From NCBI RefSeq assembly GCF_000787815.1, contig NZ_BBPO01000047.1:1-58614 (forward strand): a DNA stretch of 58,614 bases, in the 5' to 3' direction. Position 1 is the stretch's first letter, and the number at the start of each line of letters is the position of its first letter. This DNA comes from Streptacidiphilus neutrinimicus (lineage in GTDB: Bacteria > Actinomycetota > Actinomycetes > Streptomycetales > Streptomycetaceae). The notes beneath the pieces are model-generated. The model saw only the letters and a program-made list of their open reading frames with translations. It ran no database searches and was not told the DNA's origin. Shown here one piece after another: positions 10,466 through 43,392 of this stretch. The position numbers and the translations under genes were made by a program.

Positions 10466-11755
10466 TCAGGACGGCCGGTGCGGAGTCGCACCGGCCGTTC
10501 CGTGTGCCTGGGCGTGCGGCTGGAGTGCCGCGTACTGGCGGCGCAGCGCGGCGGCGACGGGGGAGTCGACGCCGTGCCGCGCCTCGGCCGTGCGCAGAGC
10601 GCTGCCGAGCAGCCCCAGGGCCTGGCTGATCCGCCCGACGGCGAGCAGACGGCGGGCCTCGTCGACGGTCGCGGCGAGCAGGTCGGCCTCGGGACCGGGC
10701 AGGGGAGTCCCGCTCACGGGCGCGGGCGGAGGCGGCGGCCCGGGAGCGAACACCGCCGCCGGCGCCGGCACGACCGGGGGTGCGGGCGCGGTGGCCCGGT
10801 CCGGCCAGGGCGCGAAGGGCAGCCGGAAGGGACGCGTCGGATCGCACAGGCCCGGCCCGGCCGGGGAGTACGCGGGCGGCAGCGGAAGCAGCGGCGCCAG
10901 CGCCTGGTGGACGGCGTGGGCGTCCGCGGGCCGCTGTGCCGGATCCTTCGCCAGCAGCCGCAGCACCAGAGCCTCCAGCGCGGGCGGCAGTTCCGGCCGC
11001 AGCCGCCGCAGCGGGGTCGGCGGCTCGTGCAGGTGCCTGTGGAGCGTGCCCAGCGCCGAGGATCCCTCGAACGGGATGGCGCCGCTGAGCAGTTCGTGCA
11101 GCACGACGCCGAGCGAGTAGAGGTCGCTCGCCCGACCGACCGGGCTGCCCATCGCCTGTTCCGGCGACATGTAGGCCGGGCTGCCGACGGGGGAGCCGGT
11201 CGCGGTGACCCGGGTCGTGTCCGTGCCCAGCACCGCCGCGACGCCGAGGTCCAGCACGACCAGGGTGCCGTCGTGACGCAGCATCAGGTTGCGCGGCTTC
11301 AGGTCCCGGTGGACGACGCCCGCCTCGTGCACGGCGGCGAGGACGGCGCACAGCTGCGCCGCCACGGCCACCGCCCACGGCCACGGGTACGGGTCGTTCT
11401 CGGCGAGGTGGTCGGCCAGGTCGGTGCCGCGCACGTACTGCATGACCAGGTAGAGCTCGTCCCCGTCGGTCCCGGCGTCGTGCACGGTGACCAGCCCGGG
11501 GTGGTCGACCCGCGCGGTGACCCGTGACTCGCGTTCGAAGCGGCGGCGCAGCTCGTCGGTGTGCGTGCCGCCCGGCGCGGCGGCGCGCAGCAGCTTGACC
11601 GCGACCTCGCGGCCGAGCAGCAGGTCGCGCGCCGTCCAGACCTGGCCCATGCCGCCCTGGCCGACGAGCGCGGCCAGCTCGTAGCGGCCGCCGACGGTGC
11701 GGCGGCCGGCGCTGCCGCCGGTGCCTGCGTTCGTGGCGCGGGCCGGGGCGGTCAC
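10466..11755 (-). CDS. Soluble Ser/Thr protein kinase (Hanks type)
   Basis: A 429-residue kinase. Visible elements are the Gly-rich loop GQGGMGQV (32-39), ATP lysine in EVAVKLL (K54), HRDLKPRN with catalytic D151, DLG (169-171) in place of the usual DFG, and SPAYMSPEQ in the activation segment. The kinase domain ends near 285. A Pro/Ala-rich linker follows, then a short helical tail that may be a TPR-like pair. There is no transmembrane helix, unlike PknB. Its GTG start overlaps the stop of the upstream membrane-protein gene (GTGA), so the two are translationally coupled; that partner may anchor or feed it. The final codons contain a perfect 12-bp hairpin shared with the convergent gene's terminator. 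Confidence 0.92.
   Translation of the reverse strand: MTAPARATNAGTGGSAGRRTVGGRYELAALVGQGGMGQVWTARDLLLGREVAVKLLRAAAPGGTHTDELRRRFERESRVTARVDHPGLVTVHDAGTDGDELYLVMQYVRGTDLADHLAENDPYPWPWAVAVAAQLCAVLAAVHEAGVVHRDLKPRNLMLRHDGTLVVLDLGVAAVLGTDTTRVTATGSPVGSPAYMSPEQAMGSPVGRASDLYSLGVVLHELLSGAIPFEGSSALGTLHRHLHEPPTPLRRLRPELPPALEALVLRLLAKDPAQRPADAHAVHQALAPLLPLPPAYSPAGPGLCDPTRPFRLPFAPWPDRATAPAPPVVPAPAAVFAPGPPPPPAPVSGTPLPGPEADLLAATVDEARRLLAVGRISQALGLLGSALRTAEARHGVDSPVAAALRRQYAALQPHAQAHGTAGATPHRPS
10471..10498 (+). terminator. Bidirectional terminator hairpin
   Basis: Perfect 12-bp stem (10471-10482 with 10487-10498) and a GAGT tetraloop. It follows the L,D-transpeptidase stop by 37 bp and lies inside the last codons of the convergent kinase gene. 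Confidence 0.8.
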
Positions 11756-42897: not shown

Positions 42898-42970
42898 AGC
42901 GGACGACGAGATTCGAACTCGCGACCCTCACCTTGGCAAGGTGATGCTCTACCAACTGAGCCACGTCCGC
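42898..42970 (-). tRNA. tRNA-Gly (anticodon GCC), copy 1
   Basis: 73 nt without CCA. Acceptor stem GCGGACG/CGTCCGC with discriminator T, D stem GCTC/GAGC, anticodon stem TCACC/GGTGA with loop TTGCCAA (GCC), and a normal GGTTCGAAT-type T arm (GAGTTCGAATCTC). Identical to copy 2. Confidence 0.95.
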
Positions 42971-43012: not shown

Positions 43013-43085
43013 AGCGGACGACGAGATTCGAACTCGCGACCCTCACCTTGGCAAGGTGATGCTCTACCAACTGAGCCACGTCCGC
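43013..43085 (-). tRNA. tRNA-Gly (anticodon GCC), copy 2
   Basis: 73 nt, identical in sequence to the copy at 42898-42970 and separated from it by 42 bp. Canonical cloverleaf with GTTCGAA in the T loop. The two copies and the unusual third tRNA-Gly probably share a transcript read on the minus strand. Confidence 0.95.
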
Positions 43086-43178
43086 AGGTACTCCGGGACC
43101 CTTGGGCCTCGGCGTGCAATCCACTCTACCTCATCGCCAGGAGTGCTTTCGCAACCCTCGGCAAGGCCGGGTGAACAG

Positions 43179-43250
43179 AGCAGGTGACAGGGATCGCACA
43201 CTGTGCCTTCCCTCTGGAAGAGGGACGCTCTACTACTGAGCTACACCTGC
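43179..43250 (-). tRNA. Atypical tRNA-Gly (anticodon TCC) with GTGC in the T arm
   Basis: 72 nt, minus strand. Acceptor GCAGGTG/CACCTGC with discriminator T, D stem GCTC/GAGC with loop AGTAGTA, anticodon stem TCCCT/AGGGA with loop CTTCCAG (TCC), variable AGGC. The T arm is ACAG(T)G-TGCGATC-CCTGT: a 5-bp stem with one bulged T, and G53-T54-G55-C56 instead of the near-universal G-T-Psi-C. In the D loop position 18 is A instead of G, so the G18-Psi55 pair is lost on both sides, while G19-C56 remains. Glycine identity (U73, C35, C36, G1-C72, C2-G71) is kept. Probably charged with glycine but poorly suited to translation. Confidence 0.75.
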
Positions 43251-43392
43251 GAGAGCCGCCCCGCTGACCTGGCCTTTCGGCTTCTGTCTGCGGTGCGTTC
43301 CGCTGAGAAGAACATTAGCCCATCTCGCGGGCCGTGATCACCACGGCGGGGCGGTATGTCCGTATTGTCCGGAAAGTCGCCGAGGAAGCGCC

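Follow-up and report, generated by a model that had tools for sequence, protein, structure and literature searches.

Locus and structure of the variant tRNA-Gly

The window analysed here is the whole 58,614-nucleotide stretch of Streptacidiphilus neutrinimicus (contig NZ_BBPO01000047.1). It contains a variant tRNA-Gly(UCC) gene on the minus strand, located about 1.8 kb from purL, with two canonical tRNA-Gly(GCC) genes downstream of it. The variant was called by ARAGORN at 43178-43250 (-) and by the Rfam model RF00005 at 43179-43250 (-), with 52.1 bits and an E-value of 2.3e-8. Both calls agree with the coordinates and strand given in an initial annotation of this DNA; the two tRNA-Gly(GCC) genes named there were also found by both programs, on the same strand. 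The variant is a widely conserved, covarying and non-canonical tRNA. Its parts, read on the minus strand, are as follows.

43179..43250 (-): variant tRNA-Gly(UCC), 72 nt without encoded CCA (ARAGORN, Rfam and minus-strand reading)
43231..43237 (-): D loop AGUAGUA, with A18 at 43234 and G19 kept
43216..43218 (-): anticodon UCC (also ARAGORN)
43187..43204 (-): T arm, with A49-U65 (43204/43187), C50-G64 and A51-U63 (43202/43189)
43200 (-): bulged U that separates positions 52 and 53 in the T stem
43192..43198 (-): T loop UGCGAUC (U54-G55-C56-G57-A58-U59-C60), with G55 at 43197

The identity elements of tRNA-Gly are G1-C72, C2-G71 and U73, with C35 and C36 in bacteria. The initial annotation described the glycine identity as intact, and G1-C72, C2-G71, U73 and the anticodon UCC are all present in the window tRNA. 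The tRNA also keeps U33 and full pairing in its anticodon stem. The T arm reads ACAG-U-G UGCGAUC C-CUGU, and A18, G55 (within GUGC) and the bulged U were all recovered as first described. Two points of the earlier description need qualification. It drew a comparison with the changed G18G19 of Staphylococcus; G18 is indeed replaced by A, but G19 is unchanged, so only half of the pair is replaced. The account of the T arm was right about the bulge and G55, but overlooked the pairs A49-U65 and A51-U63. A full 5-bp T stem with UUC at positions 54-56 was found in 70/71 Rfam tRNAs of the genome, and the variant is the sole exception. It lacks the standard 5-bp T stem, U54-U55-C56 and G18-U55 of an ordinary functional tRNA; it has the cloverleaf with compensatory changes and the glycine identity of a functional tRNA-Gly. 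An alternative T-arm hairpin (GCAC-AGU-GUGC) forms when the window strand is folded to minimum energy, but it occurs in just 9 of 27 distinct sequences and was rejected as incidental.

The initial annotation asked whether a canonical tRNA-Gly(UCC) exists elsewhere in the genome. One is present at G000:C147:50927-50997, with G18G19, UUC and encoded CCA, so the variant is not the only UCC tRNA. Global alignment of the two gave 49 identities, 21 mismatches and 3 gaps. The variant and the canonical actinobacterial tRNA-Gly(UCC) share the anticodon, the acceptor ends and a 7-nt D loop; the canonical tRNA differs in its 5-bp T stem with UUC, G18, G51-C63 and encoded CCA. Such a canonical gene was found in 14/14 genomes checked (eight genera), with or without the variant. 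The five other tRNA-Gly of the genome carry G49-U65 and G51-C63.

Conservation and covariation

The variant was found in 63 of 80 named purL loci, which hold 66 copies; the other 17 comprise 4 Kitasatospora loci and 13 distant loci, some of the latter with little upstream sequence. The unusual positions are nearly invariant in the 66 named copies: G19, the bulged U and U73 are found in all 66, and A18 and UGC at 54-56 in 65 each. CCA is encoded in 7/66. The exception among them is Yinghuangia (locus L278, genus g2), in which positions 18 and 55 are canonical and the bulge is kept. The bulged base is C in one relative (L067), and the bulge is shifted by one place in genome G022.

Covariation was analysed in 25 hand-picked sequences out of 29 distinct ones. 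All 21 of the 21 stem pairs are formed in all 25 aligned sequences. Two-sided changes occur at 7 pairs and in 37 cells, where shuffling gave 9.4 on average, and all five anticodon-stem pairs show such changes. The earlier statement that the stems stay paired and do not decay at random is supported by this set.

The 18-55 change had also been described as coordinated, and no mixed state was found in either collection. Among the 131 pattern-matched genomes of the family, 124 have A18/G55 and 7 have G18/U55 (genera g2 and g4), from a list read by eye; a script count of the 66 named copies gave 65 A18/G55 and one G18/U55. The bulge is retained in the 7/131 genomes with canonical 18 and 55. Six of these seven are represented in a PurL tree, where they form one clade (100/99). 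The two states may thus differ by one coordinated change, in either direction. In the same tree, the A18/G55 genus g8 is outermost in the family. We take S. scabrisporus to be what is now Embleya. That species has been placed before Kitasatospora and Streptacidiphilus (PMC6113628; this and the other articles are cited from excerpts). The absence of the variant from the nested genera g14 and g11, described below, needs two changes on the PurL tree. The number of losses is uncertain because the tree is based on a single gene, has long outgroup branches and many unresolved forks, and keeps neither g1 nor g9 in one group. The window PurL (g1) groups with a g9 genome and the PurL of G001 (g1) with g14, which might reflect either purL exchange between genera or weak signal.

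Distribution among genomes

A structural pattern that left positions 54 and 55 free was searched in 200 genomes of the family. It identified the variant in 131/200 genomes and 15/17 genera, including 63/63 genomes of Streptomyces (g9). One further genome (G081) carries a variant that is one base shorter, which brings the family total to 132/200. BLAST with a single sequence found 122/200, an under-count relative to the pattern, and recovered the variant in 14/14 genomes of the window's genus, its own included. Confinement to one strain, which the initial annotation had named as a point that would refute its reading, is therefore contradicted by these counts. Tandem copies were seen in several genomes: four in L256 (Streptomyces sp. 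I05A-00742, upstream of purL), three in G151, and two each in G097, G141, G195 and G027. ARAGORN as run detected the variant in just 14/63 named loci, so the variant is probably missing from many annotations.

In a class-wide sample, a GUGC pattern matched 40/394 genomes, all in the family; these 40 are the window's own genome and 39 of g9. No match to this pattern was found in the 354 sampled genomes of other families (0/354). The covariance model R1 gave at least 95.7 bits for the 40 family genomes; 30 outside genomes also reached the threshold, at no more than 75.3 bits and all with 71 nt, in a search with stricter filters by which weak matches may be lost. Twenty of the outside matches were read, and all 20 are ordinary tRNA-Gly (15 UCC and 5 CCC) with GG at 18-19, UUC and G49-U65. 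Their 51-63 pair is G-C or C-G, with A51-U63 in 0/20.

Within the family, R1 at an E-value of 1e-16 gave no match in g14 (63/63 genomes), g11 (3/3), G039 and G137, and five controls scored 86.4 to 100.7 bits. G039 has no PurL match, so its assembly may lack the pur region, and the completeness of G137 is 71%; neither was counted as a loss. The genus g14 is most likely Kitasatospora: the PurL of G026 shows 93-96% identity to four named Kitasatospora loci, followed by Streptomyces at 88%. The same four named loci also lack the variant. At the purL side of g14 and g11, 6/7 loci hold two tRNA-Gly(GCC) genes and no variant; in the seventh, which is truncated where its contig stops, one is seen. Only the GCC genes were matched by R1 at these seven loci. 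Two named loci, L300 (Streptomyces sp. SID13031) and L304 (a Bifidobacterium breve metagenome-assembled genome), have PurL at 72% and 71% to that of the window, as distant as Kribbella, and are probably mislabelled.

Neighbouring genes, promoter and leader

The features around the variant are listed below.

43312..43317 (-): TAATGT, a hexamer resembling a -10 element, within a conserved block upstream; candidate promoter (alignment of relatives)
43271..43281 (-): 5' leader GCCGAAAGGCC in the precursor (similar motif in 54/63 named loci)
43013..43085 (-): canonical tRNA-Gly(GCC), nearest downstream neighbour (ARAGORN, Rfam)
42898..42970 (-): canonical tRNA-Gly(GCC), second downstream neighbour (ARAGORN, Rfam)

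A site of the GCTAnnGT type was found in 62/63 named loci, and 59 of these 62 have it 55-63 nt upstream of the tRNA. The same type of site occurred in 53/3150 mononucleotide shuffles, although the motif was picked after the alignment had been viewed. A strict TTGAC-N16-19-TANNNT promoter pattern was found in just 1/35 upstream regions. The conserved part of the putative promoter is the TAnnGT hexamer together with the leader, and the locus and its candidate promoter are largely conserved. Among the 80 named loci, Streptacidiphilus pinicola has the PurL closest to that of the window (98.7% identity), and the next best reaches 86.2%. The variant tRNA of S. pinicola is identical in sequence to that of the window. 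The window is therefore most likely to be assigned to Streptacidiphilus and not to Streptomyces, the genus to which the initial annotation referred.

Comparison with the tRNA-Gly of Staphylococcus aureus

Non-proteinogenic tRNA-Gly in addition to canonical ones are known in S. aureus, and were proposed to escape elongation factor Tu (EF-Tu) and to supply the Fem transferases (PMC4052509, PMC3656896, PMC9976931). In the three such tRNAs, the strong EF-Tu pairs G49-U65 and G51-C63 give way to A49-U65 and A51-U63, and GG at positions 18-19 to UU or CU (PMC4052509). The window tRNA is similar in having both A49-U65 and A51-U63. Position 18 is also changed, and the variant likewise supplements a canonical isoacceptor that has the same anticodon. 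The GUGC sequence replaces G-T-Psi-C in the S. aureus non-proteinogenic tRNA-Gly, and GUGC is also present in the window tRNA, with UGC at 54-56 in the named copies as given above. A51-U63 occurs in 66/66 named copies; A49-U65 is found in 1/66, that of S. pinicola. The family as a whole carries half of the S. aureus pair signature.

Glycine is a weakly bound residue and needs a tight tRNA body for EF-Tu, and this is why A51-U63 would matter. The bulge lies in the EF-Tu-facing T stem and would be expected to lower the affinity further. The T-stem pairs lend independent support to a predicted avoidance of EF-Tu. The variant belongs to another lineage than the S. aureus genes, one with a one-Gly bridge, and is known here from its sequence. 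A separate origin seems probable because the variant was found in 0/354 of the sampled class genomes outside the family. By these features the variant is set apart from the S. aureus set, since it lacks the G19 change and adds the T-stem bulge. This bulge is not mentioned for the S. aureus tRNAs in the excerpted parts of PMC4052509, PMC3656896 and PMC9976931.

Proposed function and alternative explanations

Of several readings, we find it most likely, at close to even odds, that the variant is a functional, specialised tRNA-Gly(UCC) that avoids translation and donates glycine, probably for the bridge made by FemX. The gene comes first in a cluster of tRNA-Gly genes adjoining the pur genes and would be transcribed from the conserved putative promoter. 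Charging by glycyl-tRNA synthetase (GlyRS) would proceed via the intact glycine identity elements. Capture by EF-Tu would be poor through A51-U63 (plus A49-U65 in the window) and the bulged T-stem U, and the elbow is also altered by the paired change A18/G55. Gly-tRNA kept outside translation could then be free for tRNA-dependent transferases, most likely FemX. This enzyme adds the single glycine of the LL-diaminopimelate-Gly bridge that characterizes the wall type. Two FemAB proteins were found in the genome. FemX and VanK of S. coelicolor use aminoacyl-tRNA (PMC4052509).

A dedicated FemX donor had been put forward in the initial annotation. The EF-Tu-weakening pairs and the conservation fit this idea, but the presence of FemAB does not track the tRNA. 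FemAB proteins occur in 199/200 family genomes, including all 63 genomes of g14, irrespective of the tRNA, and co-occurrence with FemX was therefore rejected as support. A link between meso-diaminopimelate and the loss in Kitasatospora was also considered. Kitasatospora and Streptacidiphilus were both reported to contain both diaminopimelate isomers (PMC6113628), and Streptacidiphilus keeps the variant, so this link is not clean. A broader account might describe a tRNA lineage that has left translation, marked by the T-stem bulge, an EF-Tu-weakening pair and the co-evolving A18/G55, which would serve as a wall donor in Streptomyces, was lost in Kitasatospora with its different wall chemistry, and arose independently as a second version of the staphylococcal cell-wall tRNA, reached via a different structural solution. 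We regard this account as plausible, though on the doubtful side.

Several observations weigh against a translation-avoiding donor for FemX. The strong pair G49-U65 is kept in 65/66 named copies. A51-U63 is shared by 16 of the genome's 70 other tRNAs, all with identities other than glycine, and therefore this pair alone is no mark of a non-translating tRNA. G19 is kept, in contrast to UU or CU at 18-19 in S. aureus (PMC4052509). An unpaired stem position was found in 3/66 named copies. The genera g14 (63/63) and g11 (3/3) lack the variant yet have FemAB, which indicates that FemX can do without this tRNA. Conversely, G033 has the variant but no FemAB match, although its assembly consists of 410 contigs and a gap is possible. 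Gly bridges occur in other actinobacterial lineages too, and no tRNA of this kind turned up when 354 genomes from the other families of the class were sampled. The connection with wall chemistry is suggestive at most.

The variant may instead serve translation as an auxiliary tRNA-Gly that, despite its unusual elbow, reads rare GGA codons on the ribosome, perhaps during particular stages or stresses. The retained UCC, U33 and paired anticodon stem, in which all five pairs show two-sided changes, would fit such a role, as a pure donor would need its anticodon only for GlyRS; C35 and C36 are, however, also part of the bacterial glycine identity. GGA is rare in PurL, the one gene counted (1/83 Gly codons), but a canonical UCC tRNA in 14/14 genomes checked, those without the variant among them, means that this codon already has a reader. 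Neither a bulge in the T stem nor the loss of G18-Psi55 would be expected in a translational tRNA, given the full T stem and UUC of 70/71 tRNAs in the genome. We consider this role unlikely, though still worth reckoning with. Glycine might also be donated to a tRNA-dependent enzyme other than FemX, such as a FemABX-like transferase of natural-product synthesis or an enzyme that glycylates lipids or proteins. Gly-tRNA-dependent FemABX-like enzymes of Streptomyces are known, e.g., DhpK and Orf11, but these two are pathway-specific (PMC12945691), whereas the tRNA extends to every Streptomyces genome sampled (g9, 63/63) and to 14 further genera. Besides the two FemAB proteins of the genome, more than two matched stretches were seen in many family genomes. 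The prospect of such an enzyme is nevertheless a slim one.

It is quite improbable that the variant is a regulatory or decoy tRNA, e.g., a nuclease target or a source of fragments, with no role as an aminoacyl donor. The odd T arm would be compatible with this, and a precedent is the pseudo-tRNA tRNAOther of Bacillus cereus, which affects the cell wall (PMC3399842). It resembles the variant in being odd, outside translation and linked to the wall, but differs in that it flanks a pathogenicity island and is found in one strain (PMC3399842). Against such a role, U73 is kept in 66/66 named copies, the acceptor and anticodon are retained, and the stems are under compensatory selection. A decaying duplicate of a tRNA-Gly gene would explain the low Rfam score (52.1 bits), the poor ARAGORN detection (14/63 named loci) and the absence from g14 and g11. 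However, the variant is kept in most sampled genera, with 100% paired stems in the 25 sequences and near-invariant odd positions; synteny and the putative promoter are conserved, and tandem duplications reach four copies. We give decay next to no credence, and regard it as refuted by the stem covariation and by the distribution over 131/200 family genomes.

Significance and minor observations

In searches of an open-access library, from which most subscription papers are missing, no report of this tRNA in Streptomyces was found. How Gly-tRNA is diverted from the ribosome to the wall is unclear in most cases (PMC4052509), and its sharing between the two has so far been addressed mainly in Staphylococcus. 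If the variant is indeed a Streptomyces counterpart, a genetically tractable bacterium that makes antibiotics would offer a test of how aminoacyl-tRNA is partitioned, and the lineages lacking the gene would serve as a natural comparison. It would also mean that selection can tolerate, and even favour, a T-stem bulge in a real tRNA, and would provide a target tied to peptidoglycan cross-linking.

Some other tRNA calls in the same genome are unusual. In the window, ARAGORN called a 97-nt tRNA-Arg(ccg) at 11654-11750 (+), which has no Rfam match and is probably a false positive. Adjacent Leu(GAG) and Leu(CAG) calls of 73-74 nt at G000:C88:19927-20078, on a 22-kb contig, show no class II variable arm and are odd or mis-called. 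At G000:C149:824-896, a 34-bit tRNA adjoins a tRNA-Pro and was given a four-base anticodon call, (Ser|Val)(cgac).
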